62,580 nucleotides of DNA from a virus (IMGVR_UViG_3300025759_000093:1-62580); one strand, 5' to 3'; shown: positions 4,808 through 62,320, counted from the first letter of the stretch. The notes: generated by a model not told the origin, from the letters alone. Numbers and translations are program-made.

Positions 4808-5019
4808 AAGAAAAAACTTTAATTGAAATAAAAAATAAAGTTCAATCACTTACAAACGTTGTACAACACTTGTATACAGAGGTTGAATACTTAAGAACAG
4901 TATCTTTTGGTACGTTAGAAACAATGAAGCATATGTCTGAATATGATAGTGCTTTGGGTAAAGTAAAAAATAAAGTAAAAGAAACAAACAATGGAGATAA
5001 GCAACAAGATACTAAGTGA
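4804..5019 (+). CDS. small coiled-coil-like protein
   Basis: A 71-residue hydrophilic protein, predicted helical with heptad-like leucines and valines between residues 5 and 40. It starts in an ATGA overlap with the preceding gene and overlaps the ribonucleotide reductase start by 29 bases, so translation is probably coupled to the reductase. There is no recognisable domain. Position is the only hint that it might serve nucleotide metabolism. Confidence 0.58.
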   Translation: MKEKTLIEIKNKVQSLTNVVQHLYTEVEYLRTVSFGTLETMKHMSEYDSALGKVKNKVKETNNGDKQQDTK

Positions 5020-6853: not shown

Positions 6854-7005
6854 AAAAGTTAATGATAATAGGAGGTATAGGTATGATCACAATGGCTGGC
6901 ACTAATATGATATGGCATAAGCAAAAACCAAAGTTTGGGCCAAATGAATTAGCAATAGCGGTTGGTGCTGTCACACTATCAGTCGGAGTTACTATAAGAT
7001 TTTGA
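6850..7005 (+). CDS. small membrane protein
   Basis: A 51-residue open frame starting in an ATGA overlap with the reductase stop. It has two hydrophobic stretches: residues 3-20 (MIIGGIGMITMAG type) and 33-49 (ELAIAVGAVTLSVGVTI), joined by a polar KQKPKFGPN loop, so it could be a two-pass hairpin membrane protein. Overlapping starts and stops on both sides support expression. The function is unknown. Confidence 0.6.
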   Translation: MKKLMIIGGIGMITMAGTNMIWHKQKPKFGPNELAIAVGAVTLSVGVTIRF

Positions 7006-7187
7006 AAAGCTCCTGGTTAAATGCCTACAATTTAATGATAGGCAAAACAACTTACGATGAGTTGTCTAAAAACAAAGTATTCTACTTGCCGGTAAATCAT
7101 GAAGATCCAGAAGTATTATTAAGATACTTTGAAGGTGAAGAAGAATATGAAAAATGTCAAACAATAAAACAAATAAAAGATGTGTGA
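7002..7187 (+). CDS. small acidic phage protein
   Basis: A 61-residue protein, probably starting at TTG 7002 overlapping the previous stop; an internal ATG at 7035 is the alternative. It contains YNLMIGKTTYDEL and ends with an acidic helix (EGEEEYEKCQTI). This resembles short conserved proteins near nucleotide genes of marine phages, whose function is not known to me. It overlaps the tiny Cys-rich frame that follows. Confidence 0.55.
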   Translation: MKSSWLNAYNLMIGKTTYDELSKNKVFYLPVNHEDPEVLLRYFEGEEEYEKCQTIKQIKDV

Positions 7188-7218
7188 ATATTGTAATGGC
7201 TACTGCGGTGGCTGCTAA
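7180..7218 (+). CDS. candidate 12-residue Cys-rich peptide
   Basis: A minimal open frame, ATG 7180 to TAA 7218, encoding MCEYCNGYCGGC with four Cys among twelve residues. It overlaps the previous gene by eight bases and ends just before the operon terminator at 7225, so it would be the last translated item of this transcript. Regular Cys spacing could bind a metal or form disulfides. Frames this short arise by chance, so this stays tentative. Confidence 0.35.
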   Translation: MCEYCNGYCGGC

Positions 7219-7224
7219 ATAATA

Positions 7225-7249
7225 AAAGGGGATCATTACGATCCCCTTT
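7225..7249. terminator. bidirectional rho-independent terminator
   Basis: Perfect 10-bp inverted repeat AAAGGGGATC / GATCCCCTTT with a 5-base loop (ATTAC). On the minus strand it is followed by a T-rich tract (TTTTATTATTT); on the plus strand the stem itself ends in TTT. It lies exactly where the plus-strand replication operon meets the end of the minus-strand late operon, so it can stop both. A second, weaker nested inverted repeat (GGAAC/GTTCC around TGGG/CCCA) lies at about 7260-7297. Confidence 0.85.
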
Positions 7250-7296
7250 CTTGGTTACAGGAACTTTTGGGTATGGTGCCCAGTTTTATCGTGTTC

Positions 7297-7827
7297 CTAT
7301 GATACATTACTACTAGAGCTTCTGCGCTTTCCCATGCCAACTTTCTTTTTTGCTTTAGTTACTTTTTGCTTCTCACCTTTGCTCATTTCACTCCAAGACT
7401 TAGGTGATTCACCACTAACTCTTTTAGATGGTCTACACACTTTAGTATTCTTGTTCTTTTCAGATCCACAAACATTTCCCTTTTCATCTTTCCACTCTTC
7501 TTTAAACCAACGTTTTAAGTTTGAACCTTCTTTAGTTTTGCGAACAGCAGACAATGGTGATCTCGATGTACTGTACATAGCCATAGCTTTACTCTTATCA
7601 TTGTCTCCCATTTTCATAGCCATTTTTCTAGCTCTCTCCATCTTAGCTGCATACTTAGGTCTCTTCTTGTTAAAGTTTTTCTGTTGCACAAATGCGCCAT
7701 TTATTTTCTGCATATTGCCTTTTCTTGTTTTATAAACCCACTTAGCTAATTCTTCAGCATTTAGATCTTTAAACTTACCGTCTGCATCAGGAGCGTCTGA
7801 GTCGTGCCATTTTAGTTTCTTCGCCAT
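7297..7827 (-). CDS. DUF5872-type basic protein
   Basis: A 176-residue basic protein. The central part (about 100-155) has the DUF5872 look: SNLKRWFKEEW, then G-CG, CRPSKRVS, ESPKSW and EMS segments, found in proteins of marine phages and large algal viruses. The N-terminal 60 residues are charged, and the tail is Lys/Ser rich (KKKVGMGKRRSSSSNVS). It is the last gene of the minus-strand late operon and ends just before the terminator. The family's function is unknown; high charge and late position suggest a DNA-associated virion component (inference). Confidence 0.75.
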   Translation of the reverse strand: MAKKLKWHDSDAPDADGKFKDLNAEELAKWVYKTRKGNMQKINGAFVQQKNFNKKRPKYAAKMERARKMAMKMGDNDKSKAMAMYSTSRSPLSAVRKTKEGSNLKRWFKEEWKDEKGNVCGSEKNKNTKVCRPSKRVSGESPKSWSEMSKGEKQKVTKAKKKVGMGKRRSSSSNVS

Positions 7828-7828
7828 A

Positions 7829-7987
7829 CTACTTTATGTTACCACCACGTTTTCTACACTTAGCTATATAACCACTAGCATACGCAGATGGAAACACATC
7901 GTATTTAGCTTTAGCTTTTTTATAACAAGCATCTTTTAAAGCTGCGGGTGAATCGTATTTATTAAAAGGTGTTTTACATTTTCTCAT
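7829..7987 (-). CDS. 52-residue basic protein
   Basis: A short frame between the DUF5872-type gene and the giant gene. It starts at ATG 7987, overlapping the giant gene's stop, and ends with TAG at 7829. The product has three Cys, many Lys, and the segment YDVFPSAYASGYIAKCRK. The VFPSAYASG core recurs in small basic proteins of marine phages and sometimes travels with the DUF5872-type gene (from memory). It fills an otherwise empty gap exactly. Confidence 0.68.
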   Translation of the reverse strand: MRKCKTPFNKYDSPAALKDACYKKAKAKYDVFPSAYASGYIAKCRKRGGNIK

Positions 7988-10900
7988 TTTCTTCTTGTTT
8001 TTGATCTTCTATTACTTGTTCTAAAACTAGATCTTCTGCTTTTACCTCTAGAACTTTGTTTCTTTTCAGATTTTAATTGCCAATCTGGCCATCCTAATAT
8101 CATCGCTACACTTTCCCACCACTCTTTTTCTTCTTCAAAAGCTCCTGTAAAGTTGTCATACTTTAACAAAGCTCTATCAAGAGGTATGTTTGTAGTTGCT
8201 GAAACTACTTTAGCTCCTGCTAAATAAGCTGGGTTATCAATAGCAAAACCTTTATCAAGCATTTCTTGTCTACGTTTTTTACTATCAAACTGATAAGCAG
8301 CACCTCTAATTTTAGATATTTTACTACTTATAGGTGGTGAAAACTGAAGCAGCTTCCAAGTAGCATCGACATATTCTGGTCTAGATCTTTTAGATCTTTC
8401 GTATATATCTAATAATAAATTCTTAATAACAGAGGCTGAAGCTCCGCCTATGCCTAAACCTCTCAACATAGAGTCAGACATACCATTCATAGTTCTATAT
8501 ATTTTTTTGTCATCTTCGTCGTCGTCTCCGTCACCTGCCCCAATAGCAAATAAAGCATTTTGTAAAGAGTTAAATATTAAGTTTTGAACAAACCCATAAT
8601 AAGCTATTTTACTTACATTAGTTTTCCAGTCTCCTCTGCCTGCTATTAAATCTTGTATAGATCTTTTTTGTATACGAGCATACTGCATAGGTGTATTAGC
8701 AAACATTAATATTAACCTTCCATAATCACTAGCTTGTTGTTGTGATATTTTATCAGGTCTACTTGATTGTTGAGATTCTTCTGATATTTCTTTCCACTCT
8801 TGTAATGCTTGTTCAGTAGCTTGCTTTTCATTAAGTCCACTGTTTTCCATTAAATCATTTATTCTATTACGATAATAAGTAGCACCACCAGCAGCTATAG
8901 CAAAGCTATCAGCAAACTGAGTAGGCGCATAACCTTTTTCCATTATATAAGCTATTGCACCTTTAGCTCTATTTTTAGCAGTCTTTGCAGCATCAGCTAT
9001 TTCAGATTCAGTTACATTTATTCTTAAACCTTGTCTTCTATCTTTTAGATAGTCAGAGTTCATTAACGTCATAAAGTCTTTCCAATACTGAGGTTGGTTG
9101 GCAAATGCAGCACCAGCTTTTAAAGGATTATTAAAATTCCAATTAACATAGTTTATAGCAGATATAGTTTGAAGTACTGCAGATCTTGTATTTAAAAACA
9201 TTATAGCAGCATTAGATCCATTAATGTAGTCTAATATTCTATTGCTAAGTCTAGTTCCTTCTGATGATCTGTTCTTACCAGTCTTAATACGTTTAATCAT
9301 GTTCTCCAGCGCATCTCTATATTTTCTTCCATACATAGCTTCTAGCTTATTTAAATTAGCCTCACTATATATTTTATCAATTCTTTGATTAAAGTCTTCG
9401 TAATACTTATATCTCTTAGTAGTATTAAGAAGCTGTTGTATATCAGTGCTTAATGTTCCAGCAGTCCAACCATTACTAGGATTAGACCAACCATCTCCTT
9501 TAGTTATTTTTAAAAGCTCTTGAGCAAACTCTATTAACTGAGGGTCATTTTCAATAATCTCAGTCATTTCTTTTAAGTCTGACGCATCTATTCCAGGTAT
9601 ATTAGTTATGCCTGTTGAATACCATAAATAAACTCTCAAGGCTTGTTCCTTAGTAAAACCTCCAATGCTTGTAGATTTATTTAAATCTTTAGGTATATTT
9701 AAATCTTTCTTAAGTTTCTTAAAATCATTTATCAACTGTAGTCTATCAGCCCTCAAATCGCCATCAGCTTTTGCTAAAGGATCTAGTAAATGTTTTTTGT
9801 ACCATGACATTTGTAAATTACCTAATGGTCCTTTAGCTAGGGTAGGATATATTAAACCTACTAAATCTTCAGCTGAATAAGGAATAAAGAATTTAAAGCT
9901 ATCTTTATCTTTACCAAGAAGTCTACCTTTTTCTTTAGATATTTCCTTCTTAAACATAGGATCTTTCTTCATAGTTATTAGCTGATCAAACTCTTGATCT
10001 AACCCTTGTGAAAACTTTAACTTAGCTTGTTGTACTCTAGACTTAACGTCTAATACACTCATGGCATCTTGAACAGCTTTAACATTTTGTAAAGCATCAT
10101 CAGCAAAGTAAAAGTCGTTGTATCCTTCAGCCGCTTTATCTACTAGCCAGTTGGCTTTTGCTTCACCAGTAGAATTACCTAAACCTATTATATTTTCTTT
10201 TTTAAATTCTAAACCTTCAGACTTTAAAAATTCATATATAGCTTCTTGAGATAGTGGTGACCTAGCTGTTAAAACAAATAGATCTTCATTACCTCTAGCA
10301 TCTTTTATTTTTTTAGCTAAATTAAATAGTGGACCTCGCTTGCCATCTCTTACAATATCAAAATCTGTAAAGTCCATTACAGCGCCTTGTTCAACTAGTT
10401 GAGATCCTTGCTCTGCAAATTGCTCAGCTGTAAGTTCACCCTCTGTTCCATCTGGCTTTGTCCAAAATACTAAACTGTTACTTTGAGCTAGTGTATCATC
10501 AAAATCAAATACTCTAATTTTCTTTATTGGTTGATCTAACTTATTTGCTAACCTTAACGCTTCATCTACACCAGCAGCTTTACTTAAAATATCTTCAGAA
10601 GTCATATCGTTAGATACGTTTAAAACTTTTGAATAGCTTAAGTCAGTAACATTTACACCTTTACTAGCTTTTAAACCTGGAGCTGTTTTCAAAAACTCAT
10701 TTAACCTTTGTTTAGCAACCTTTTGTGATATATCTCCATTTAATATTTGATATAGTAATTCTTGTTGCTTGGATATAACAGATGGTGTTATTTGATTTTC
10801 AGCTACATTAATACCATTGTTTTCAGCTACAGATTTGCCATTGCTCTCTATGAGGATATTAGGATCTACACCTTTATGGATCTTACCGTTTTCGTCTTCT

Positions 10901-13900
10901 CTAACTTGGCTATTTACATTTGGATTAAAGTATCTTATCCATATAGACTTAGTCCCCATTAAAATGTCATAAGCAAACTCTACAGGAGCATTAGCTGTAT
11001 AATTAAAAGGCTTACCGTCTACACCAATACCTTTTAACATTAGATCATTAACATATGGTAATAAACCTTGAAAGTAATTATTTAAAGCACCATCAACATA
11101 TAGATCGTAGTTACCTTGTAACATCCTGTTGAATAAAAACTTGCCTAAATCACTAGCCGGTTGAGTATGTTCTTCAACTGGTTTTAAACCTGTATAATTA
11201 GTAAACATTATAGGCGAAAATGTTCTCATCATGTGACCTTGGTAGGAGCTGGTAGAAGAAAGCATAGCTGCTACAAAAGGAGCATTACTAATATCATCTT
11301 GTATTAACTTATTTAAAGCGTCTAATACTTGTTTAAATCCTTTTTCTTTATCCTTCTGTTGCTGTTCAAAATCTTTCGTACCAAACTTTTCATTAAGCTT
11401 TACATAGCTCATACGTTTTAAACCTGGTATTATTTTACTAGCAAATTTTATTCCGTCTTCTTGTATTCTATCTAAAAACGCAGCAACTTGTTTAGCATTT
11501 AAAAAAGCAAAGTTACCACCATAATCTCTTTCACCAGTTTTATTACCGTCTAGATCTTTAACAGATACTGTTTTACCAGTAAAGGTTCCAGCTGAATTAA
11601 TTGTAAAAAATTCTTTAGGTACTAATGGTGCTAATACATTAGCTAACCATAACCTGTAGGCTTCTCTACCTTCAAAGCTTTTCATGTTGATTGGATCTAG
11701 TCCATTAGCTTTTAATATTTGATTCCAATTTTTTTGCTCTGCAAGAAGTTGTTCTCCAGTGCTAGCAGTAAATAGTTTTCTAGCTTTATCTATTTTTCTC
11801 TGTTGTGCTTTAGTCATTTTGACTCCTTTAGAAAACATCAACTCTGCTTTACCTTCAGATAACTTACTAGGAACTGGCAAGCCTTTATCTTGTAATGCCT
11901 CTCTAACCTCTTGATTTGTAAGCATACGTTCTGTTTGAGAAACTAAAGCTTTTATTCTAGCGCTAGTATTTCTATCTGCTAAGTTCATTTCACCAGCTGG
12001 TGTTATTCCAAATACTTCTTTAAACAAAGCAGGACTTATATTTTTATTCTTTTCAAAAGCAGATAAACCGGCTTTACTACCAGTCTTAGACATTTTAACT
12101 CTATCAGTCTTAGTATAGAAGTTATCTAATAATACTTTTTGTACACCAGTTGAAGTACCTCCAGGCGTTGATCCTTCAGGTAACATAGTAATTAAAGCTT
12201 CCGCATTTTTATTTATAAACTGCTGAGCATTTCTTACATCGTCTTTAGTTAAGTTTCCAGGTTTTGGTTTTATACCAAACATTTCTTGCACTTCTTGTAG
12301 GGCTATATTTTTTAAAGATTTAAAATCTAAATCTGCAATAGGCAGATTATCTACCTCAGCTCTAACTTTTTTAACAGCTTGTTCAACATCACCACTTAAT
12401 CTGCTCTTAAGTTTAATAGCTCTTTTAGGTTGTACAACAGGAGTATCATCTGCTTCTTCAACAGCTGCTAATCCTACTTGCTCTGTAACATCGTCAGTAA
12501 ACTCTTCACCTAAAACTCTTTTCGATGCTTCAATAGCTCTTGAAGGTAGAAACTTATTTATGTAAGCTGCTAAAGGTACGCCTGACTCTGGATCATAAGC
12601 TCTTATTAAATCTAATATACCACGCTCACCAGTTTCTATTTCATCAGTAAGTAATTGCCTATCAAAACCAGGAGCTTCACTTCTACGTTGTACTATTTTA
12701 TTTGTAATAGGTTTGAACTGTTCTATAATATCAAAAGCTGCAGCCTCACCTTGTTCGTCATATAATCTCTGAACCTCTTCACTAGGTCCTTTAGAAAGCT
12801 TACCATCAGATTCATCTTCTGGTGGAGCAGCTTGTAAATTAAAATCTTGTACGGAACTTTGAAAACTTTTTATATAGTTAAATACATCATCTCCAGTTTT
12901 TAGTGGAATTAAAAAACCAGTCTTAGGATTAAATTTATTAGCTAAGTTTTTAAGCATATATTTTAAACCTGATATTTTGCTAAAATCATATTTACTTAAA
13001 ACTCCTGTAGCAACCATATCTCCAAAAAGGTTTAACACTTCTTCAACATCTACACCTTGGTTTTTAACAAAGTCGTCATATTGCTCTTGAGTTATTTCTT
13101 GATTACTTAATTGAGTTTGCAACTCTCTTATAGTAGATGTATAAGCTTGTTTTCTATTTAAATAATTATTATAATCTTCTTGGGATATTTTGCCAGTTTC
13201 TTTGTTTATTTCTAATTGTTTTTCAGCTTGTTCTAAAGCTAACTGAGCAGACTCAACAACAACTCCATCTTTAACTATACCAGCTTTTCTATTTTCTATA
13301 TGAAATAGTTCATGCATAGGAGCAACAGCAGACATCGTCGCAATAAATCTATCTGAAGTTTGACCTATATTTCTAGCAATATTATCTCTAAATACTATTA
13401 TGTCTTGATCAATAAATGTACCGTTTGAATTTTTACCTCTAGCTTCTATTAATTGCTCTGCTCTATCTCCATAAAGTTCTCTTAGTTCTTCGACTGTTGT
13501 TTGGTCATTAACTTCTGTATACTTATTACCGTTTAACTCTTGTGTTACACCTACTATATTATTATAAAACTCAAACAACCCTTGGTTATAAGCGGCCATC
13601 GCAGGATCAAAAGCATCTTTTTGATCTTGAGCAGCTTTTGTTTTTCTAGTATTTAAAAGCTTTTCTATTTGCGTATCTACAGATTTATATTGATTAATAA
13701 ACTGTTGCTTTTGTTTTTTAATAGCTTTGCTTTCAGGATCTGCTCTACCACCTAGCTCTATTAGGTTATTTATATATTCTTTTCTTTGACTTATTAAATC
13801 AAATAATTCTATTTGTTGTGGCTCACTTAAAGCACTAAGCTTTTCTACGTTTTCTATATTTCTAAAAGCTGCTTGTTGTAATATTAAATCTTGTTCTGCT

Positions 13901-52699: not shown

Positions 52700-53103
52700 A
52701 TCATATATTATTTATCTATAATCTTTGTGTTATAGTTTGTTTTTTAATCCTATTTAGTTTATGTCGCTTATCCATCGCGTACATTATAGTAATTCACTTG
52801 TATTTCACGATATTTACCCTATAGAAGGGTGACACTTACCTGTTATTAAGTAGCTTTAAGGGGCTAATGTCACTATATATTAGAAATATTGGAGTATTGC
52901 ATAGCGCCACCACAATATAATTTTGTGTAAATAAGAAAATGAAATATATAATTGCGGGTCCCCATTGTTTTATATAATTTAATTGTTATATATGACATTT
53001 ATTTAATATATTATTGTGTCAATGTTATATATATATTGTACAAACTAATTACGACTTATGTTGGATAATATAAATGTAAATAAAATATATAAATAAACTA
53101 ACA
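52700..53103. other. divergent noncoding region between late and early operons
   Basis: About 400 AT-rich bases with late genes leaving to the left and early genes to the right, the place for divergent promoters and possibly an origin. Contents: a small hairpin ACCCT/AGGGT (about 52817-52831), long TA-only stretches (about 52975-53035), a G-rich island (GCGGGTCCCC at about 52953), and promoter motif copy 2 (53041-53072) at the right end. A 23-codon open frame (52761-52832) looks like chance. No direct iterons were recognised. Confidence 0.5.
53041..53072 (+). promoter_or_regulatory. promoter-like composite motif, copy 2
   Basis: CAAACTAATTACGA, eight bases, GGATAATATA. This is the first plus-strand copy in the early region. 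Here the nearest ATG is followed at once by a stop, and the first gene begins at 53104, 35 bases beyond the -10-like GATAAT, so this copy would give a normal short leader. Confidence 0.6.
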
Positions 53104-53232
53104 ATGAAAAACTTAATTAACAACATCGAACTAACAATATTAAAATTATCACTCATATCATTTATATCAACAGTAATATATATGATAGTAGAATATGGAA
53201 TTATTAACTACATATCATTCAATGGAATTTAA
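53104..53232 (+). CDS. 42-residue membrane protein
   Basis: The first early frame, ATG 53104 to TAA 53232, directly after motif copy 2. The sequence is hydrophobic from about residue 11 to 32 (ILKLSLISFISTVIYMIV), with a short polar N terminus (KNLINNIE), so it is likely one transmembrane helix. Being the first product of an early transcript, a host-membrane function such as exclusion is imaginable but not shown. Confidence 0.5.
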   Translation: MKNLINNIELTILKLSLISFISTVIYMIVEYGIINYISFNGI

Positions 53233-53307
53233 TTAATGTAAATTATTGAGATAATATGTGTAACACTTCTCAACTAATTTTAACTAATAAACAAAGTTAC
53301 ACTCTTA

Positions 53308-53340
53308 CAAACTAACAACGAACTAAACTGGATAATAATA
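53308..53340 (+). promoter_or_regulatory. promoter-like composite motif, copy 3
   Basis: CAAACTAACAACGA, eight bases, GGATAATAA. It lies 40 bases before ATG 53380. An inverted repeat GTGTAAC/GTTACAC (about 53259-53302) sits immediately upstream and might be an operator. Confidence 0.58.
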
Positions 53341-53379
53341 ATAACTAAACTAAATATAAATAAATAAAATATAATAACT

Positions 53380-53634
53380 ATGAAAACTAATAACTTAACT
53401 ACAAAAAGATTTGTAATCAGAAAATCATTACTCGGAACTAATTCAGTAATTACTTTCACTAACAAAAAAGGCTATAAATTCACTTATGATCATGATGAAA
53501 TTTACTCAACATTTCAAGAAAAGTTTGAAAGTATGCCGTGTTTCCAACAGTACAAATCTTATACAAATAGTAATACTGTTCCAAAATTCTGCAGAGAATT
53601 AAGTGAAATCTTAGATCATCAAGTTTCTGAGTAA
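53380..53634 (+). CDS. small early protein
   Basis: An 84-residue basic protein, no known family: a beta-like first half (SVITFTNKKGYKFTYDHDE) and a helical second half with two Cys (MPCFQQY, KFCRELSEIL). It is preceded by motif copy 3 and followed by a 175-base noncoding stretch holding a tRNA-like structure. Function unknown; typical early host-interaction size. Confidence 0.58.
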   Translation: MKTNNLTTKRFVIRKSLLGTNSVITFTNKKGYKFTYDHDEIYSTFQEKFESMPCFQQYKSYTNSNTVPKFCRELSEILDHQVSE

Positions 53635-53694
53635 TAAAATAAAGTCCAGTTAGTTCTACTCGTTTACTGGTAAATCAAATATGAATGAGTAATA

Positions 53695-53754
53695 TAGCCG
53701 ACGGGTATATAAATACTTGGGAAAGAGGTGAGGTTCGACTCCTCACTCGGTTAC
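53695..53754 (+). ncRNA. tRNA-like structure lacking normal D/anticodon arms
   Basis: The noncoding stretch 53635-53809 contains a foldable element. A 7-bp closing stem TAGCCGA (53695-53701) / TCGGTTA (53747-53753), containing one G-U pair, is directly continuous with a 6-bp hairpin GTGAGG/CCTCAC whose loop is TTCGACT, a textbook tRNA T-loop, in the coaxial position a T-arm would have. Between them only 26 bases (53702-53727) replace D and anticodon arms, with a possible GTAT/ATAC stem. No CCA and no anticodon with U33 can be found. A second upstream pairing, ACTCGTT/AATGAGT (about 53658-53690), may extend the structure. Confidence 0.4.
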
Positions 53755-53786
53755 AAACTAAATACTATCCAAAGTGGATAATATAA
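53754..53786 (+). promoter_or_regulatory. promoter-like composite motif, copy 4
   Basis: CAAACTAAATACTA, eight bases, GGATAATATA; one base differs in the 14-base box (ACTA for ACGA). It begins at the base following the 7-bp stem of the tRNA-like element and precedes ATG 53810 with a leader of about 20 bases. Confidence 0.58.
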
Positions 53787-53809
53787 TAAACTAAATAAAA
53801 TTAATAACT

Positions 53810-54010
53810 ATGTATAATGTAAATAATCCTTCAAACTGGTCTTGGTCAAAAGCTTTTGACGAAATGGAAAAGACTGTAAATCAAGCTGAACTTACTCAGC
53901 AATGTATAAATCACGTTCTCAATTATCCCGGAGAAGCTAATGGTGTCTTCATGACATTAAGTAAATCTCAACAAGATGATGTGTATGAACTACTAAATCA
54001 AGTGCTATGA
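53810..54010 (+). CDS. small early protein
   Basis: A 66-residue acidic protein, mostly helical (WSWSKAFDEMEKTVNQAEL; SKSQQDDVYELLNQVL). No domain recognised. It starts 20 bases after motif copy 4 and its end overlaps the next start by four bases (ATGA), so both are translated from one transcript. Confidence 0.6.
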   Translation: MYNVNNPSNWSWSKAFDEMEKTVNQAELTQQCINHVLNYPGEANGVFMTLSKSQQDDVYELLNQVL

Positions 54011-54213
54011 ATAATCTAAATACTACAATAGACAAAATAGCAATGTCAGAATTTGACATGCACTATTATCAACTCGGTGACAATGAGAAACAATGGTGTC
54101 ATGATGAAATGGTGAATAATCCAAAGTGGCTAAAGAAAGATTGGGAAGATCCATTATTTTGTGTAGCTGATAAGTGGAAAGCTGGTTTACCAATATATAA
54201 AACTTATAAATAA
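54007..54213 (+). CDS. small early protein
   Basis: A 68-residue protein rich in Trp, Tyr and Asp (EKQWCHDEMVNNPKWLKKDWED), starting in an ATGA overlap. The high aromatic content suggests a compact protein-binding module. No family is recognised, and no membrane segment or signal peptide is present. Confidence 0.58.
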   Translation: MNNLNTTIDKIAMSEFDMHYYQLGDNEKQWCHDEMVNNPKWLKKDWEDPLFCVADKWKAGLPIYKTYK

Positions 54214-54232
54214 ACAAATAAAAACAAATAAT

Positions 54233-54391
54233 ATGATAGATAACTATGAATTTGAAATATACTATGGTGACATTGAAGAACCACTATATTTAACTAATGA
54301 TAAAAACTATATTTGCGATGAAATGAGAGATTTCATGGAAGAATTAGGAATAATAATGAATGAAGTAATATATAAAGTAGAAAAAATATGA
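54233..54391 (+). CDS. small acidic early protein
   Basis: A 52-residue acidic protein, ATG 54233 to TGA 54391 with an ATGA overlap to the next gene: EFEIYYGDIEEPLYLTND, then helical DEMRDFMEELGIIMNEVIY. Strong negative charge is common in early inhibitors that mimic nucleic acid, but no target can be inferred. Confidence 0.55.
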   Translation: MIDNYEFEIYYGDIEEPLYLTNDKNYICDEMRDFMEELGIIMNEVIYKVEKI

Positions 54392-54645
54392 ATAAAATAA
54401 TATTAACAATTGGAGTAGCAAGTTCTTTACTAGCTTCTCCTGCAAAAAAAGATGGTACAATAGTAAACTCAGTAGAAAGAAACAAATATCTACTAAGTGA
54501 AGCTATAAACAATATCCAAGATATGAAAGAGTGGATGCAGAGTGATGTAGACAAAGATAATATAATTACAGATTTAGGTGAATATTATATTGAATATCTT
54601 AATGAAACTGAAGATATGTTACTTGAGTTTTCTAATACAAAATAA
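54388..54645 (+). CDS. small exported early protein
   Basis: An 85-residue protein with an N-terminal signal-peptide-like stretch (KIILTIGVASSLLASPA, cleavage probably near residue 18-19). A mature acidic helical part follows (YLLSEAINNIQDMKEWMQSDV; YYIEYLNETEDMLLEF). The last codons (ACA AAA TAA) form the beginning of motif copy 5. Probable periplasmic location; function unknown. Confidence 0.6.
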   Translation: MNKIILTIGVASSLLASPAKKDGTIVNSVERNKYLLSEAINNIQDMKEWMQSDVDKDNIITDLGEYYIEYLNETEDMLLEFSNTK

Positions 54646-54672
54646 ATACGACAACTAATGGATAATAACAAT
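54638..54672 (+). promoter_or_regulatory. promoter-like composite motif, copy 5
   Basis: CAAAATAAATACGA, eight bases, GGATAATAA, then ATG exactly six bases after GATAAT. An earlier ATG at 54658 is formed by the motif itself (AATGGATAAT), which is why the longer reading of the next gene is rejected. Confidence 0.62.
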
Positions 54673-54921
54673 ATGAAATACATAAACACAGACAACTTAA
54701 CAGCAATCAATTATGGTGACGGTGAAATCAAACTCATGATCTTCAACAAACATAAATCTCCTTATGGTTACTCACCTCGCGACTTAGTTGTCTCACTGTT
54801 CAGTGTTTCAATAAAAGAATTTACGTACAACTATGTACAGTCGGAAGTAGACAAAGTGTATTCTACTTTCAACTATGATGAAATACACGAACTAATAACT
54901 AAAATAAATAACAATGACTAA
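54673..54921 (+). CDS. small early protein
   Basis: An 82-residue protein starting at ATG 54673 next to motif copy 5. Sequence: beta-like KYINTDNLTAINYGDGEIKLMIF, then PRDLVVSLFSVSI and a C-terminal helix. No domain recognised. The last bases overlap the next gene by eight. If transcription starts at the motif, this mRNA has practically no leader. Confidence 0.6.
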   Translation: MKYINTDNLTAINYGDGEIKLMIFNKHKSPYGYSPRDLVVSLFSVSIKEFTYNYVQSEVDKVYSTFNYDEIHELITKINNND

Positions 54922-55078
54922 AACTCTTAAAAAAATAGCAATATACCTAACAGAGTGGCACATGTTAAAAATATATGCTACCGTAATGACTACAGCTTTC
55001 TTATGTATTTGGATTCCAACTATGTTTATAGCTATCAAAAATGTAATAATGCAAGTAATCTTACCACTATTTAAATAA
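54914..55078 (+). CDS. 54-residue membrane protein
   Basis: ATG 54914 to TAA 55078, overlapping the previous gene. A basic N terminus (TKTLKKIAIYLTEWH) is followed by a strongly hydrophobic region (residues 20-52, including VMTTAFLCIWIPTMFIAI). It would sit in the inner membrane. Small early membrane proteins often affect superinfection or host transport; nothing specific can be read here. Confidence 0.55.
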   Translation: MTKTLKKIAIYLTEWHMLKIYATVMTTAFLCIWIPTMFIAIKNVIMQVILPLFK

Positions 55079-55079
55079 T

Positions 55080-55313
55080 ATGAAACTAACTAACGAAGAA
55101 AAAGACGAAATTACTTGGAGAGTGGTTGACTCACTATATGAAAAACTAGCTAACGAGTTAGAATATGAACTTGAAGATCATAATAACTTTACAGAAACTA
55201 ACGATGAATTTCTAGATTTATTCAATGAAATGACTATAAAAATAGTAAAATATATGAGAAGTGAACTGTTCTCTCCAGGAACAAGTGAAGACTTAGAACT
55301 TTATAAAAGATAA
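55080..55313 (+). CDS. small acidic early protein
   Basis: A 77-residue, Glu/Asp-rich helical protein (EEKDEITWRVVDSLYEKLANELEYEL), starting one base after the previous stop. No cysteine or membrane part. Unrecognised; the amphipathic helices suggest an oligomer or a protein-binding inhibitor. Confidence 0.57.
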   Translation: MKLTNEEKDEITWRVVDSLYEKLANELEYELEDHNNFTETNDEFLDLFNEMTIKIVKYMRSELFSPGTSEDLELYKR

Positions 55314-55316
55314 AAT

Positions 55317-55487
55317 ATGACAGAACAACAAGCAATTGAAGCAATCGCTAATGATATACAGGATGGTATCTACGGTTGGACACAGAAATGTGGAACAGAG
55401 TGGCAGAAGTGGACATATTCACTAATGCAAGCAACAAAAATATATAATGGTGAACTAATAATAGACTTAGAAAATGGAAGCAATTGA
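55317..55487 (+). CDS. small early protein
   Basis: A 56-residue protein, ATG 55317 to TGA 55487: TEQQAIEAIANDIQDG, then aromatic YGWTQKCGTEWQKWTYSL and a C-terminal beta-like IYNGELIIDL. It overlaps the next gene by 14 bases. Unrecognised; single Cys, no membrane segment. Confidence 0.53.
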   Translation: MTEQQAIEAIANDIQDGIYGWTQKCGTEWQKWTYSLMQATKIYNGELIIDLENGSN

Positions 55488-55650
55488 TAGATCTCACGAG
55501 TGGGAAGGCGCGTTTGAAGACGCTAAAACTAAAAAAGCAGTAATGTTTCTAATGATAGAAGAAGTTACAACAAGCACTCCTAATGATCAAGAATTAGGCA
55601 AAAGAATAAGAAAAATAATAAATAACTACAAAAGAAATGAAGACAATTAA
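55474..55650 (+). CDS. small early protein
   Basis: A 58-residue protein, ATG 55474 to TAA 55650, overlapping genes at both ends. It begins MEAIDRSHEWEGAFED, has a hydrophobic-helical middle (KKAVMFLMIEEVT) and a basic C terminus (KRIRKIINNYKRNED). Unrecognised; it might be a small DNA-binding helical protein by charge alone. Confidence 0.53.
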   Translation: MEAIDRSHEWEGAFEDAKTKKAVMFLMIEEVTTSTPNDQELGKRIRKIINNYKRNEDN

Positions 55651-55780
55651 ATTTTACCCAAGTAATAGATCAATAATAAGATTAGACGGCAAAATGTATA
55701 AAGGTTATACAATTGGAAATATACCTGATGATATTCAAGGATGGTTTAACTATAAAGGATTAACGTTTGTTACAAATTAA
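55637..55780 (+). CDS. small early protein
   Basis: A 47-residue protein, ATG 55637 to TAA 55780: KTIKFYPSNRSIIRLDGKMY, then YTIGNIPDDIQGWFNYKG. Predicted as a small beta fold. Its last codons (ACA AAT TAA) form the start of motif copy 6, so the end of this gene and the next promoter-like element coincide. Confidence 0.55.
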   Translation: MKTIKFYPSNRSIIRLDGKMYKGYTIGNIPDDIQGWFNYKGLTFVTN

Positions 55781-55807
55781 ATACGATTACTATTGGATAA
55801 TATATAC
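55773..55807 (+). promoter_or_regulatory. promoter-like composite motif, copy 6
   Basis: CAAATTAAATACGA, eight bases, GGATAATATA, and ATG 55808 exactly six bases after GATAAT. A TTG at 55793 inside the motif is not considered a start. Confidence 0.62.
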
Positions 55808-56041
55808 ATGAATACAACAACAATACAAACAAAAGCATGTAAATGTGGCAAAGAGCTACATCCAGTAAGAATTAAGTACGGTTATAACACTTGTGTTAGC
55901 TGTAGCAACGTAGAGCGTTATGGTTGCGCTCCAGTTATCAACCATAAAACTGGCAATAGTATACAAATACTTAGTCGTGAAGATGCTATTAAAATAGCAA
56001 AACTAACTAGACGTAAAGGTTATGGTACTATGCTAAGATAA
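55808..56041 (+). CDS. small zinc-ribbon-like protein
   Basis: A 77-residue protein with a CKCG pair and, about 20 residues on, CVSCSN, an arrangement that can bind one zinc, followed by YGCAPVINHKTGNSIQILS and a basic C-terminal helix (IAKLTRRKGYGTMLR). The GCAPVINHKTGN segment recurs in small phage proteins from memory. It probably binds nucleic acid or a protein. Starts at motif copy 6; followed by the first structured leader. Confidence 0.6.
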   Translation: MNTTTIQTKACKCGKELHPVRIKYGYNTCVSCSNVERYGCAPVINHKTGNSIQILSREDAIKIAKLTRRKGYGTMLR

Positions 56042-56161
56042 CGGGCATGAGTGTGATGCTGTAACTCGACCTAAAAACATACGAGCGTTAACTCGCGAAA
56101 TAGTGCCTTACAATTTAAAATAAGGTCAGCTCATACTTAATCGGTATGGGCTTTTCGTGGT
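56042..56161 (+). promoter_or_regulatory. structured leader / attenuator-like element, copy 1
   Basis: A 120-base noncoding stretch between two early genes. Its 3' end forms AGCTCATAC (56128-56136) / GTATGGGCT (56144-56152), a 9-bp stem with one G-U pair, then TTT and CGTGGT directly before ATG 56162. Upstream, CCTTA/TAAGG (56106-56125) forms another stem. Further up, CGAG at 56082 can pair with CTCG at either 56065 or 56092, mutually exclusive options. The 3' stem has a sequence- and structure-matched partner at 58099-58126. Confidence 0.6.
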
Positions 56162-56332
56162 ATGAGTAAACAACAACAAACAATTACCAAACAACTACAA
56201 AACTTGTACTCTTGGACACAATTCTATCAAGAAGTTGGTAATAAAGATCAAATAAGAAAGTGTCAAACTCAAATCGCCGAGTTAAAAAAGGCGTATAATC
56301 AATTAAAATCTAATAAAAATGGCAAAAAATAG
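56162..56332 (+). CDS. small early protein behind hairpin leader
   Basis: A 56-residue polar protein, Lys/Gln-rich helical (QQTITKQLQNLYSWTQFYQEVG; QIRKCQTQIAELKKAYNQL), ATG 56162 six bases after the U-run of the leader hairpin. Overlaps the next gene by 14 bases. Coiled-coil potential; function unknown. The unusual start context suggests its translation may depend on opening the hairpin. Confidence 0.57.
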   Translation: MSKQQQTITKQLQNLYSWTQFYQEVGNKDQIRKCQTQIAELKKAYNQLKSNKNGKK

Positions 56333-56687
56333 AACGCTAAACGAAATTAGACAATCAAAAGAGTATCAAATAGCTAAACATAATGCAGATTTACAAGCAG
56401 AAGTAGCTAAAAATACTAATAAAAACCCTAATGTAACAACTTCTAATCCTTTTGAACACGAAGAAGTAGATAAAACTGTTGATCAAATTGTAGAAGACTT
56501 ACAACCTGTAATATATGATACTATATTTGAACTAATTTGTAATGAAATGAGTACAAAATATGTATTTGACTCATCAGAATACTTAACTGAAGCAGGTTTA
56601 GAACTATTTGAAGACGAATGGTTCGAGTTTTATCATGAAAATCATGGTAAAATAATGCATAAACTAATGCTTTGCTACAAAACTTAA
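56319..56687 (+). CDS. acidic early protein
   Basis: A 122-residue protein: basic N-terminal 25 residues (KNRTLNEIRQSKEYQIAKHN) followed by an acidic helical body (FEHEEVDKTVDQIVEDLQPVIYD; LFEDEWFEFYHENHG). No domain recognised. It starts inside the previous gene and ends four bases before the next, so is part of the same operon. Confidence 0.58.
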   Translation: MAKNRTLNEIRQSKEYQIAKHNADLQAEVAKNTNKNPNVTTSNPFEHEEVDKTVDQIVEDLQPVIYDTIFELICNEMSTKYVFDSSEYLTEAGLELFEDEWFEFYHENHGKIMHKLMLCYKT

Positions 56688-56691
56688 AATA

Positions 56692-56889
56692 ATGAATAAA
56701 TTTAACGGAATGGAGTCGAAACTTATAATCGACGCACTTGACTGCTACGTAACGCAGGTAGAAAAAGATATATTAGAATTAGAAAAAGATGGTAAAAGAT
56801 CTATATTTGCACCAGGTTTTTATACTAATATATCAAAAGAGTTAAAAGACAAAGTAAGATCTATGACTAAAAAACAAATTACAAACTAA
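56692..56889 (+). CDS. small early protein
   Basis: A 65-residue helical protein (ESKLIIDALDCYVTQVEKDILELEKDG; KELKDKVRSMTKKQITN), one Cys. The last codons ACA AAC TAA belong to motif copy 7. Not recognised; might pair with the neighbouring acidic protein as they are co-transcribed. Confidence 0.56.
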   Translation: MNKFNGMESKLIIDALDCYVTQVEKDILELEKDGKRSIFAPGFYTNISKELKDKVRSMTKKQITN

Positions 56890-56916
56890 ATACGAACACT
56901 AAAGGATAATATAAAC
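56882..56916 (+). promoter_or_regulatory. promoter-like composite motif, copy 7
   Basis: CAAACTAAATACGA, eight bases, GGATAATATA, ATG 56917 exactly six bases after GATAAT. This copy equals the consensus of the 14-base box. Its first bases are the final sense codon and stop of the upstream gene. Confidence 0.66.
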
Positions 56917-57138
56917 ATGTTATACGATAAATTAAAACCACATATCAAAGCCAAGATGAAAGAAAATGCTGAAGAGTATGAATCTGTAAATTGGCTACTT
57001 GATAAACTTAAAAACAAAGACCATTACTCTGACTTAACTATTGAGCAGATAAGATCTATTTGTACATTTGGCGATGTATGGTATTACGATCTTACGCAAA
57101 AAGAGTTAATATGGGGTGATTGGCTAATAAAACAATAA
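56917..57138 (+). CDS. small early protein
   Basis: A 73-residue protein: basic helix (YDKLKPHIKAKMKENAEEYESV), then DLTIEQIRSICTFGDVWYYDLTQKELIWGDWL. Aromatic C-terminal part. Unrecognised. Starts at motif copy 7, so its transcript would be leaderless or nearly so. The next gene's ATG follows two bases after the stop. Confidence 0.57.
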   Translation: MLYDKLKPHIKAKMKENAEEYESVNWLLDKLKNKDHYSDLTIEQIRSICTFGDVWYYDLTQKELIWGDWLIKQ

Positions 57139-57140
57139 AT

Positions 57141-57491
57141 ATGAACGAAGAACAACTAGCTTTAGATACATTAAAAGCACTAGGTGCTAAAGATACATCA
57201 AGTCCATCTCAAATAAAAAGAGGTACAACTTGCTTTACATTACCGACAGGTGACTGCATATCTGAACATAAAACAGGTTATATTAGAAAAAATATACTAA
57301 ACAAAAATGGTAGTATTTACACCTGTTATCAGCTAAATCCACAATATAAATCCTCTCACAAAGTTATTTCATGGAATGGAAAACTATATGAGTTCGATAC
57401 AAACAAAAGAATGCTGATAAACAATAGAGCTGAAAGGCTAAAAAGACTTGTATTATATACTATTAAGCAAATAAACAAAGCAAATGGATGA
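57141..57491 (+). CDS. basic early protein
   Basis: A 116-residue basic protein from ATG 57141 (a TTG at 57120 overlaps the previous gene and is less likely). It has EEQLALDTLKALGAKD, a beta-like KRGTTCFTLPTGDCISEHKTGYIR segment and a C-terminal basic helix (RAERLKRLVLYTIKQI). Two or three Cys. A nucleic-acid-binding role would fit the charge; no family recognised. Confidence 0.57.
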   Translation: MNEEQLALDTLKALGAKDTSSPSQIKRGTTCFTLPTGDCISEHKTGYIRKNILNKNGSIYTCYQLNPQYKSSHKVISWNGKLYEFDTNKRMLINNRAERLKRLVLYTIKQINKANG

Positions 57492-57573
57492 TGACAAGCG
57501 AGACTTAGCGTTAATACTGTTTGGATTAGCGCTAATACTTTACACAATTTTACTAACTACTAACTTAATTTAA
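57484..57573 (+). CDS. 29-residue membrane micropeptide
   Basis: ATG 57484 to TAA 57573, overlapping the previous gene by eight bases. DDDKRD at the N terminus, then one hydrophobic helix (LALILFGLALILYTILL). Single-pass micropeptide, likely inner membrane. The overlap architecture matches the other operon members, but at this length chance cannot be excluded. Confidence 0.45.
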   Translation: MDDDKRDLALILFGLALILYTILLTTNLI

Positions 57574-57578
57574 CAAAA

Positions 57579-58028
57579 ATGGAATCAAAAGAACCAACAA
57601 ACGAAAAAATAATAGAAGCCGTAAAAAGTTATTATGGCTTAAAAATAGATGAAAATGCTTACGATAATGCAGATATTTATGCTTATGAAGAAAACACTGT
57701 AGACGGTTACTCTGTATATGTAGTAGCTCACGACATGAGAAACGTAAGTATATGCGAAGATGTGTATTATTACGATAGTGATGTACCATCAGCTATTATG
57801 GAGATGATAAGATATTCAAATGGACATTGTACATTATATGCAGATGACTATTTTCTAGATGATATATACTTTGACGATATGTTACTAGAAGAATTTTCAG
57901 AAATAGCAGATAAGATATATGACGAAATTATGAATGAAGACAGTGATTATAACTTTGACATGGCAGAACTGCAATGGCTAAAGGAAGAATTTACTGAATC
58001 AGAAGAAATTAATCAGACTGTTAGTTAG
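57579..58028 (+). CDS. highly acidic early protein
   Basis: A 149-residue protein with very high Asp/Glu/Tyr content (DENAYDNADIYAYEENTVDGYS; YADDYFLDDIYFDDMLLEEF). A central beta-like portion includes YSVYVVAHDMRNVSICEDVYYY. The charge resembles DNA-mimic inhibitors of host nucleases or restriction enzymes, but this is composition only; there is no known anti-restriction motif. It ends just before the second structured leader. Confidence 0.58.
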   Translation: MESKEPTNEKIIEAVKSYYGLKIDENAYDNADIYAYEENTVDGYSVYVVAHDMRNVSICEDVYYYDSDVPSAIMEMIRYSNGHCTLYADDYFLDDIYFDDMLLEEFSEIADKIYDEIMNEDSDYNFDMAELQWLKEEFTESEEINQTVS

Positions 58029-58132
58029 TTAATAGTAGTTTAGTTTCCACGATAAACTGTCGTCTTAAACACTAAGGGAGTAGATATTAAGACAGGTCAG
58101 CTCGTACTCAAAAGGTACGGGCTTTTCGTGGT
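58029..58132 (+). promoter_or_regulatory. structured leader / attenuator-like element, copy 2
   Basis: A 104-base noncoding stretch. The 3' hairpin AGCTCGTAC (58099-58107) / GTACGGGCT (58115-58123) is followed by TTT, then CGTGGT and ATG 58133, as in copy 1. Relative to copy 1, one A-T pair has become a G-C pair by changes on both arms, evidence that the stem itself matters. Upstream a perfect 7-bp stem GTCTTAA (58062-58068) / TTAAGAC (58087-58093) replaces the CCTTA/TAAGG of copy 1, and AGTTT/AAACT forms a further small stem. Confidence 0.62.
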
Positions 58133-58348
58133 ATGAATACAATAAACATGATGAAAGCATTTATGTTACTAGGTGATCTAGATGCTACAAGCACAGAAAA
58201 GTTAAGCGATGCAAGAGTTGCTTACAAAGAAAGAATAGCTTTTGCTACAATGAGAGCTAGTATACCTGATTGGCAACCACCAAGCAACTGGAATAGTTTA
58301 ACTAACAAACAAAAACTAGACAGACTTGATAAGTTACAATCAGTATGA
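58133..58348 (+). CDS. small early protein behind hairpin leader
   Basis: A 71-residue protein starting at ATG 58133 directly after leader copy 2. Met-rich helix (INMMKAFMLLGDLDATS), basic middle and PDWQPPSNWNSLTNKQKLDRLDKL. Overlaps the oxygenase start by four bases (ATGA), so a hairpin switch here would also govern the oxygenase. Confidence 0.57.
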   Translation: MNTINMMKAFMLLGDLDATSTEKLSDARVAYKERIAFATMRASIPDWQPPSNWNSLTNKQKLDRLDKLQSV

Positions 58349-58959
58349 ACTATAAAATAGAAGAAAATATAATACCTTCTTGGGCTGTTAGCTATTTGCA
58401 AAAATACACTGAAGAAGCTATACGAAAAACTCAACCATATTTAGGCCAACCAAAAGAAAATGGATCTGGCGCTTATTGGGGTGGTATTGATATGGCTTCA
58501 AGTTTACCTATTGCAAGTGCTAATGAAAACGCTATGTTGTTTTCTGTATATACTTCTAACTTTATGTATGACTTAATTACTAAGTATATACCAAAGCCGT
58601 ACTTATTTAATGATCAAATAGTAGTGAAAAATAAAGATGTTAATATGCCTTTTCAACCTCACTATGACAATCAATATGGCCCTTTTCCTGATGACAAAAG
58701 CCTCTTAACTATAAATTGTATGTTAGTTTTAGATGATTTTACTGATGAAAACGGCACAATTGAAGTACTTGACAACAATAAATGGGTAAGTTTATACCCT
58801 AAAACAGGTGATATAGTATTAATAGAAGGTAACTGTGTACACAGATCTTCTCCTAATACAACAGATAAACCAAGAAGAGCATACTTATGTGTGTATTCTA
58901 ATAAATCAATAGGTAAAAACTTTCAAAAAGGTTTTTATTACGAAGCGTTTACAAACTAA
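58345..58959 (+). CDS. 2-oxoglutarate/Fe(II) dioxygenase, PhyH-like
   Basis: A 204-residue jelly-roll oxygenase. Iron ligands: His106 and Asp108 in QPHYDNQ, distal His166 in NCVHRSSPN; Arg177/Arg178 (KPRRAY) for 2-oxoglutarate. Additional PhyH-like features are NCMLVLDDFTDENGTIEVL and KTGDIVLIEGN. Hydroxylates an unknown small molecule, protein or base. Translationally coupled to the small upstream gene; the stop codon region (ACA AAC TAA) begins motif copy 8. Confidence 0.78.
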   Translation: MNYKIEENIIPSWAVSYLQKYTEEAIRKTQPYLGQPKENGSGAYWGGIDMASSLPIASANENAMLFSVYTSNFMYDLITKYIPKPYLFNDQIVVKNKDVNMPFQPHYDNQYGPFPDDKSLLTINCMLVLDDFTDENGTIEVLDNNKWVSLYPKTGDIVLIEGNCVHRSSPNTTDKPRRAYLCVYSNKSIGKNFQKGFYYEAFTN

Positions 58960-58986
58960 ATACGATAACTAACGGATAATATTAAT
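58952..58986 (+). promoter_or_regulatory. promoter-like composite motif, copy 8
   Basis: CAAACTAAATACGA, eight bases, GGATAATAT, ATG 58987 exactly six bases after GATAAT. Last copy before the replication and transcription genes at the right end. Confidence 0.66.
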
Positions 58987-59304
58987 ATGAAAGAAGATGC
59001 AATCGAAAAATTAGCTCAACTATTATTTGATAAAATAATGGAAAAGCAAGAAGATGCTGATGCAGAATATGCAGAGCAAATACAAAAACTAGTTAGTCAA
59101 GGCTATACTATATCTGATATTACAAGTAATAAAACAGATGAGTTAGGTTTAAACGCTGAAGAAAGACTAGTAGGCGAACTAGCTAGACTGCAAACAATCA
59201 TGATGATCTTTGAAGACAAAGAAGAATATGAAAAAGCAGCAATGATACAAAAGAAAATAGAAAAAATAAATTTTAAATTAAATCATGGAAGTGGAAAATA
59301 TTAA
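58987..59304 (+). CDS. UVR-motif-like helical protein
   Basis: A 105-residue acidic helical protein. The C-terminal part reads ARLQTIMMIFEDKEEYEKAAMIQKKIEKI (residues about 70-98; key EDKEEYEKAAMIQ), matching the UVR helical hairpin found in UvrB/UvrC and other proteins (L-x(7)-EDYExAAxxRDxI type). It overlaps the ligase gene by 20 bases. Probably a protein-protein interaction module linked to replication or repair. Confidence 0.6.
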   Translation: MKEDAIEKLAQLLFDKIMEKQEDADAEYAEQIQKLVSQGYTISDITSNKTDELGLNAEERLVGELARLQTIMMIFEDKEEYEKAAMIQKKIEKINFKLNHGSGKY

Positions 59305-60831: not shown

Positions 60832-60964
60832 TTGGATAATATATTATTCGCAAAAATGGCTTGATGAAGAAATAAATTCAAGAGGTTTAAAAAACGAGCA
60901 TGAGCTATACTGGGCAACACTGCACAGTGACAATAGGCTTAAAGATACTAAAGTAAAGGGCTAA
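60818..60964 (+). CDS. 48-residue early protein
   Basis: ATG 60818 to TAA 60964, overlapping neighbours on both sides. SDWIIYYSQKWLDEEINSRG, then ELYWATLHSDNRLKD. Aromatic and helical. The codons for DWIIYY resemble the GGATAATAT element by chance, but lack the upstream box. Function unknown. Confidence 0.5.
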   Translation: MKNSDWIIYYSQKWLDEEINSRGLKNEHELYWATLHSDNRLKDTKVKG

Positions 60965-61584
60965 TGTCACAACGCGCTATGACATATCTAAATAATAAGC
61001 GCATTGTATATCGTAGGTACTCGCCAGATGAGCCAACAACTAGTTACGACTGGGGTTGGTACTATGCTGACGGTACTTACGGCTATTACAGTTTGTTTAA
61101 CACAAAGGCAAAGATAAATACCTATAGATCCTTAAAATGGCATTTGTTAGTATTGTGGTATCTTAATCCTGACATGGATAAAACACAGTTTTCTGAACTA
61201 GCAAGTGTAATAACTCATAAACCTAATGGGTTTACTACATTTACATTATCGCCTAACATATTAAACAACATTATAAACGAAGTATATATACAAGATCTTG
61301 AACAACCACCAAAAAATAAACTACGTAAAATAGTATTTAAAGATGGTTCAGGTCTTAGTGTAAGTGAAAAATTAAGTATTGTTGGCTCAATAATAGGTAG
61401 AGGTAAATCAATACTACAACAAGATATTTACGAAGCTATGCTACAGGTGCATGATAACGGTGTTATCACTATACCTAAAATAGCAAAAGTTCTAGGTTGC
61501 ACACCAAGAACAATACATAGAAACATGGGTGAAGAACTCAAAAAAGAAAAACAAGAGTTAAATAACAAACATGAAAAAGTATAA
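60964..61584 (+). CDS. HTH protein, likely regulator
   Basis: A 206-residue protein. The N-terminal half is aromatic and beta/alpha (YDWGWYYADGTYGYYSLF). The C-terminal part (about 140-195) has a helix-turn-helix: QDIYEAMLQVHDNGVITIPKIAKVLGCTPRTIHRNMGEEL (location only, key I171, A174, L177, T181, R183, T184, I185). It overlaps the sigma factor gene by 14 bases, so they are co-translated; a transcriptional regulator or a partner of the sigma factor is plausible. Confidence 0.65.
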   Translation: MSQRAMTYLNNKRIVYRRYSPDEPTTSYDWGWYYADGTYGYYSLFNTKAKINTYRSLKWHLLVLWYLNPDMDKTQFSELASVITHKPNGFTTFTLSPNILNNIINEVYIQDLEQPPKNKLRKIVFKDGSGLSVSEKLSIVGSIIGRGKSILQQDIYEAMLQVHDNGVITIPKIAKVLGCTPRTIHRNMGEELKKEKQELNNKHEKV

Positions 61585-62320
61585 TGTACAAAACTACATA
61601 AGGCTCAAAGAAGATATAAAGTTAGCTATGCCAGTTAATAAAGAATATTCTTTTTATACTCGTGACGAACTTATAATTAGATTTATGCCGCTTGTAGAAA
61701 ACATTTCAAAAAAGTTTGCTACATCTCAAGAAGCGTCAGGTGTTATGTCTATATTAGATATAATACAAGAAGGCTATGTTAATTTAATAAAAGCAGTAGA
61801 TAAAATAGACTGGGAAAAACTTATTGACTCTGATGATGTTGAATTAAGTTTGAAGTCTTTTTTATCTAAGCGAGTTAGAGGTGGCATACGTAGAGCTATT
61901 GATAAAAATAGAGGTACAATGCGTATACCTGAGCACAAGATGGAACAAATAAGAAAAGATGGAGGTAAAGATAAAAAAATGGTTGCTATGTTTTTTAATA
62001 GCATATTTTTAAGTATTGATGCTACACCATCTAATGAGGATATGGTTTATCAAATACCTGATAAATCAGATCCATACAATGAGCAATTGTTAAATGCTTA
62101 TTTATTAAGTTTATTAAACAAATATCTAACTGAAAACGAAGTTTTTGTATTAAGCAAGAGTTATGGTCTTGACGGCGATAAAATGTCAGCTAAGAAAATA
62201 GCTGAAGCTTTAGACATAAAAGGCGTGTCAGCTTACGTAAGAGTTTCTGAACTTAAAAAGCAAGCTGTACAAAAGCTAATTGACAACGTAGATCACTCGC
62301 AAGTGCTTGACTACCTGTAA
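61571..62320 (+). CDS. sigma-70 family RNA polymerase sigma factor
   Basis: A 249-residue protein with sigma-factor regions. Region 2: RDELIIRFMPLVENISKKF (about 31-49), ILDIIQEGYVNLIKAVDKIDW (about 62-82; key QEGYxxLxKAxDK) and SKRVRGGIRRAIDK. A MRIPEHK segment follows as in region 3 starts. Region 4 includes LTENEVFVLSKSYGLDG, SAKKIAEALDI and AYVRVSELKKQAVQKL with the HTH. It would redirect host RNA polymerase, perhaps to the repeated motif found upstream of early or late genes. No phage polymerase was seen here. Confidence 0.84.
   Translation: MKKYNVQNYIRLKEDIKLAMPVNKEYSFYTRDELIIRFMPLVENISKKFATSQEASGVMSILDIIQEGYVNLIKAVDKIDWEKLIDSDDVELSLKSFLSKRVRGGIRRAIDKNRGTMRIPEHKMEQIRKDGGKDKKMVAMFFNSIFLSIDATPSNEDMVYQIPDKSDPYNEQLLNAYLLSLLNKYLTENEVFVLSKSYGLDGDKMSAKKIAEALDIKGVSAYVRVSELKKQAVQKLIDNVDHSQVLDYL

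Follow-up and report, generated by a model that had tools for sequence, protein, structure and literature searches.

A repeated promoter-like motif in uncultured marine phages, probably read through a phage sigma factor and in part placed to yield leaderless mRNAs

Why would a phage genome place the same two sequence blocks, held at one fixed distance, in front of gene after gene, and why does the second block so often end just short of a start codon? We addressed this question in the virus record IMGVR_UViG_3300025759_000093, a stretch of 62,580 nt (62.6 kb) that we call the window and number along its + strand. The motif CAAACTAAATACGA-N8-GGATAATA occurs there eight times, always on the + strand and with 0-2 mismatches per copy, where the chance expectation is 0 (100 dinucleotide shuffles gave no copy). 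A sequence-only reading of the window had listed eight copies, and every one was recovered at its site. Its placement of five ATGs exactly six bases after GATAAT was likewise correct (1968, 54673, 55808, 56917 and 58987), but the spacer between ACAAAC and GATAAT, which it gave as 17 bases, is actually 18 (TAAATACGA plus 8 plus G).

Apart from the first, the copies are found in the rightward arm of the window, which carries small unknown genes, a ligase, a helix-turn-helix (HTH) protein and a sigma factor; the structural genes (portal, terminase, GroEL, tail fibre) run leftward. The first copy (1933-1968; box 1933-1946, GGATAATA 1955-1962) sits after the primase/helicase, and its predicted +1 is the A of the ATG at 1968, which would make the gene at 1968-2228 leaderless; the N-terminus of its product, MKKTTLILVVMFSL, resembles a signal peptide. 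The copies at 53041-53076 (GGATAATA at 53063-53070), 53308-53343 and 53754-53789 have predicted +1 positions at G53076, A53343 and A53789, and would give leaders of 28 nt to the ATG at 53104, 37 nt to the ATG at 53380 and 21 nt to the ATG at 53810. For the remaining copies the predicted +1 again coincides with the A of the ATG: 54638-54673, 55773-55808 (whose gene encodes a Cys-rich product of 77 aa), and two copies with 0 mismatches, 56882-56917 and 58952-58987. These assignments correct gene starts, for example to 1968 from 1953 and to 54673 from 54658, the latter a listed ORF start that overlaps the -10 box.

Other sequence features were seen around the cluster. A tRNA-like sequence, GAGGTTCGACTCCTCACTCGGTTA, occupies 53685-53753, directly 5' of the copy at 53754, and ARAGORN calls no tRNA there; Rfam and tRNA searches gave no match. 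The intergenic segments 56027-56165 and 58030-58138 share an ending, GGTCAGCTC(A/G)TACT...GGTA(T/C)GGGCTTTTCGTGGTATGA, just 5' of a gene start, and a short hairpin that shows a compensatory change (CATAC/GTATG versus CGTAC/GTACG) and has no Rfam match; it is possibly a small RNA or a regulatory hairpin. The divergent region 5' of the cluster holds a conserved inverted repeat, AGTGTGACAnTAGCCTGTTACT ... GGCTAATGTCAC, present in the window (52826-52880) and in about 20 relatives, often with a T run after it and in most cases 70-760 bp ahead of the first promoter copy; it is a candidate operator, terminator or origin. A host-type promoter, TTG-N18-TAATTTTG, at 52897-52925, also 5' of the cluster, was not conserved in relatives and was rejected.

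The motif is widespread among related viruses. An exact scan found it in at least 118 IMG/VR stretches of viral contigs, and among 50 long records 44 carry it, with 264 copies in total and none for a reversed-pattern control; all but three of these copies (261 of 264) lie on the majority strand of their record. Sequence context was taken from the window and from regions of 38 related phage contigs, with up to 4 mismatches allowed, a set that by coincidence also comprises 264 copies. As the contigs are metagenomic fragments that are mutually related, copy counts are not independent of one another. The motif lies 5' of orthologous genes in about 32 contigs for the family of the gene at 55808, 27 for that at 58987, 23 for that at 56917 and 30 for that at 53380, and the eight spacer bases vary among these sites. 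An objection that the motif might be absent from orthologous sites in related phages, which the sequence-only reading had named as a finding that would refute it, therefore does not apply, with roughly 23-32 contigs carrying it there.

Comparison of terminases places the window closest to Manatee Spring podovirus ctfjg026 (63%), followed by Flavobacterium elemo phages (44%) and Cellulophaga phages phi13:2 and phi38:1 (37-39%). The motif, the sigma factor and the HTH protein are all absent from the assembled genome ctfjg026 and from the cultured phages elemoF, phi38:1 and phi13:2. The nearest named relative, MW202828.1, is without motif, sigma or HTH protein, and carries a different repeated element, the palindrome GTGTCGTTAACGACAC, 5' of many of its early genes (4500-11800). 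The hosts of this uncultured marine virus group are probably Flavobacteria.

The 264 copies from 38 contigs and the window share one architecture: a box of 17 bp, TTACAAACTAAATACGA, then a spacer of exactly 8 variable bases, then GGATAATA. A logo built from 450 copies reads TTA-CAAACTAAATACGA-N8-GGATAATA-TAAAT[A/G], and its flanks are unbiased because flanking positions played no part in site selection. The distance from box to -10 is rigid: 8 bases in 235 of 240 pairs, 7 in one and 9 in none. If GATAAT is numbered -12 to -7, then +1 falls on motif position 35. All 202 copies without an ATG at that position have a purine there (115 G, 87 A), a rule seen at no neighboring position. In copies with the box, position 35 is a purine in 242 of 242 (100%) and begins an ATG in 25%, and the base at -1 is a pyrimidine in 81%; for R-GATAATA sites from the same DNA without the box (GGATAATA/AGATAATA, n=136), the figures for position 35 are 59% purine and 3% ATG. 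The fixed purine in the presence of the box, as against 59% in its absence, makes this position look like the start point of a promoter.

The geometry is also that of a sigma-70 promoter, with a hexamer that ends at -7, a purine +1 seven bases downstream, and ACAAAC lying 18 bp from GATAAT, within the 16-18 bp of a sigma-70 -35 distance; conservation runs on to -22, beyond a plain -35 element. The promoter reading first proposed for the window thus gains support from the fixed spacing, the strand bias, the position just 5' of genes and the +1 purine. Taken together, the data bear out the earlier reading in substance and support a promoter class that is specific to these phages, has sigma-70 geometry and includes a predicted leaderless subset, from which we infer transcription.

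We examined start codon placement in the 255 copies followed by an ORF of 35 aa or more, which we took as the downstream gene. The first start codon lies exactly at +1 in 61 of them, drawn from 19 protein families and 26 contigs including the window. Other offsets up to 45 average 3.7 copies each, giving a Poisson P of about 2e-51 for +1, a value to be read with the non-independence of the counts in mind. An ATG is also frequent at -2 (mostly ATGTAA), because the initiator often reads AATGTAA; as a start codon it was rejected, since just 5 of 75 such ATGs open an ORF. An ATG occurs at +1 in 62 copies and opens an ORF of that minimum length in all but one of them, and this difference from the ATGs at -2 indicates that the +1 ATGs are real starts. 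It is therefore well supported that leaderless mRNAs would arise from roughly one copy in four, those whose ATG lies at the predicted +1, as the earlier reading had proposed for its five genes.

In pairs of leaderless and leadered homologues the commonest N-terminal offset is 0 (229 of 498 pairs). That the two forms most often begin at the same first residue supports the start codons, and it indicates that leader length evolves. The leaderless form is found in 12 of 32 members of the family of the gene at 55808, in 9 of 23 for that at 56917, in 15 of 27 for that at 58987, and in none of the 36 motif-linked members for that at 53380. The earlier suggestion that an invariant distance reflects selection for leaderless expression is thus fair for the subset only, since a gene that is leaderless in one phage may have a homologue with a leader in another. 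Short A-rich leaders (60% A, 4% G) are present in about 70% of copies, and A stands at -3 in 143 of 167 leadered starts. In 5 of 264 copies an apparent start codon lies upstream of +1 and overlaps the -10 box (four at -6, one at -8), and three of these have no in-frame ATG, GTG or TTG alternative nearby. Such starts would be unusable from the predicted transcript, and they count against the explanation that we favor.

That explanation, which we hold with good though not complete confidence, is a phage-specific promoter of sigma-70 type, read by host RNA polymerase with a phage sigma factor and possibly with help from the HTH protein. It builds on computed properties (motif, spacing, +1 purine, ATG placement, gene linkage and presence in relatives). 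The -10 element would be GGATAAT(A), with an obligatory purine +1 seven bases downstream, and the upstream box of 17 bp, spanning roughly -38 to -22, would stand at a rigid distance from it. The most likely reader of the motif would be host RNA polymerase equipped with the sigma encoded at 61571, and the adjacent HTH protein (60964) may act on the upstream box. Where the ATG is +1, as in about one copy in four, the mRNA would be leaderless and translated by recognition of its 5'-AUG; the other copies would yield short leaders, rich in A, poor in G and with A at -3, which would suit the initiation mode of Bacteroidota.

The candidate cognate factor is a sigma-70-family protein with regions 2 and 4 (61571-62320, + strand). 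Its profile matches are FliA (8e-11) and SigA (1e-10), and its fold matches are sigma chains, from an AlphaFold model of moderate quality (pLDDT 76, pTM 0.46). Adjoining it is the gene for a conserved protein of 206 aa with a C-terminal helix-turn-helix (60964-61584, + strand), whose model is fairly confident and found no fold match in the PDB (best E 0.76). The sigma gene is present in 39 of the 50 long records and the HTH gene in 38, both on the motif strand, the latter always alongside the former, and every record that is not truncated on the sigma side encodes both. The 6 records with motif and no sigma are contigs that stop short of the expected sigma locus, and when records were picked by terminase alone, all four with a full sigma gene also had the motif. 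The Gln and Thr with which SigA reads -12, which we take to be Q437 and T440 in E. coli numbering, are replaced in the phage sigma by Gly and Arg, invariant in 34 phage sigmas. Judged from established sigma-70 genetics, this replacement would fit a G rather than a T at -12. The sigma at 61571 is thus likely to be the cognate factor for the motif. Its region 4 would span just the outer part of the 17-bp box, which makes the HTH protein the natural candidate for a reader of this box. No motif was found within 2 kb upstream of the sigma operon in the window, and we count this against the explanation.

It is possible, more specifically, that the class is bipartite: a reprogrammed sigma would read GGATAAT, an obligate HTH partner would read the 17-bp box at fixed phase, and +1 would be the AUG. 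We regard this version as a serious, if tentative, possibility.

Alternatively, host RNA polymerase with its own sigma could read the -10 element while a phage activator such as the HTH protein binds the box, as in T4 middle (MotA-type) promoters, leaving the phage sigma to serve other genes. This is unlikely, despite an upstream box that exceeds a normal -35 element in length and ends at -22, and an HTH gene that always adjoins the sigma gene. Host sigma-A uses TAnnTTTG (PMC9723704), which is absent from the motif; the consensus has no TAnnTTTG -7 box with a TTG near -33, in agreement with the earlier claim that it differs from the usual Bacteroidota -7/-33 promoter. TAnnTTTG is not enriched in the window either (102 occurrences, 96 expected). 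The near-invariant GATAAT in turn argues for a dedicated sigma. Finally, the full motif (up to 2 mismatches) is essentially absent from 119 flavobacterial genomes, with four copies in 3 of them, and host genomes do not use it as a regulon.

Perfect or one-mismatch copies were also seen in long bacterial contigs, including Flavobacteriaceae MAGs. In two MAGs the motif lies 5' of a small gene for a secreted-protein-like product, one of them with two copies, and in a third it lies upstream of a gene whose product looks, by appearance, TerB-like, beside parA/parB. Perhaps such host genes are switched on by the phage sigma.

A phage-encoded RNA polymerase, of T7/N4 type or like the crAss-like virion polymerase, is a far less probable reader. 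Conservation over 17 contiguous bp is reminiscent of phage polymerase promoters, and one virion protein weakly matches a crassvirus muzzle domain, below the cut-off; against this, the geometry is exactly sigma-70-like, and the 34 window proteins scanned matched no polymerase family. A search of 28 records with PF00940 (T7-type RNAP) gave no match, as did its control, which likewise matched nowhere. A virion RNA polymerase was rejected on the absence of DFDxD from the large structural proteins examined. Least probable of all is that the motif acts as RNA (in processing, antitermination or as a translation signal) or as an operator or iteron, a reading suggested by the frequent overlap of copies with the stop codon and 3' end of the gene before them, but one that leaves the -35/-10/+1 geometry and the 100% +1 purine unexplained, with RNA structure not beyond that of shuffles in six copies and no Rfam match. 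No rival accounts equally well for the +1 purine and the rigid GATAAT.

Reading by a phage sigma would provide a sequence-level handle on gene control in widespread uncultured marine Bacteroidota phages, with a promoter tied to a specific sigma/HTH pair. Leaderless translation would become testable in a phylum that is without Shine-Dalgarno signals and rarely leaderless. Should the bipartite version be true, precise transcript starts would let these phages use translation from a +1 AUG, which their hosts hardly use. Our literature searches found no report on this promoter, on a Bacteroidota phage sigma, or on leaderless genes of Bacteroidota phages.

Phage-sigma-dependent promoters include the middle and late promoters of Bacillus phage SPO1 and the late promoters of T4. 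Like these, the class proposed here is a dedicated one, repeated 5' of phage genes and linked to a phage sigma gene, which occurs in the same phages and is absent together with the motif in the named relatives. It differs from them in its consensus, rigid spacing, 17-bp upstream box, Bacteroidota host phylum and predicted leaderless subset. A likeness to sigma-28/FliA, among the group 3 sigma factors, is seen in the best profile match of the phage sigma, and the FliA consensus has a GATAA core with G at -12, as does the phage motif. The phage motif, however, lacks the GCC before GATAA and has CTAAA near -30 rather than -35, and the RIPEH segment of the phage sigma resembles SigA instead. With the sigma-A promoters of Flavobacteria (PMC9723704, PMC6847099) the motif shares the host group, and its leadered copies keep the A at -3 of starts described for Flavobacterium johnsoniae (PMC6847099); unlike those promoters, it does not match TAnnTTTG, and 5.5% of mRNAs are leaderless in Flavobacterium psychrophilum (PMC9723704). 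A parallel to the leaderless copies is found in Deinococcus-Thermus and Actinobacteria, whose -10-adjacent leaderless genes have a -10 element just 5' of the ATG that starts the transcript at the start codon (PMC3160421, PMC12340547). Here, unlike in those groups, the arrangement belongs to phages of a phylum in which a survey predicted such genes in 1 of 37 genomes (Bacteroidetes/Chlorobi; PMC3160421).
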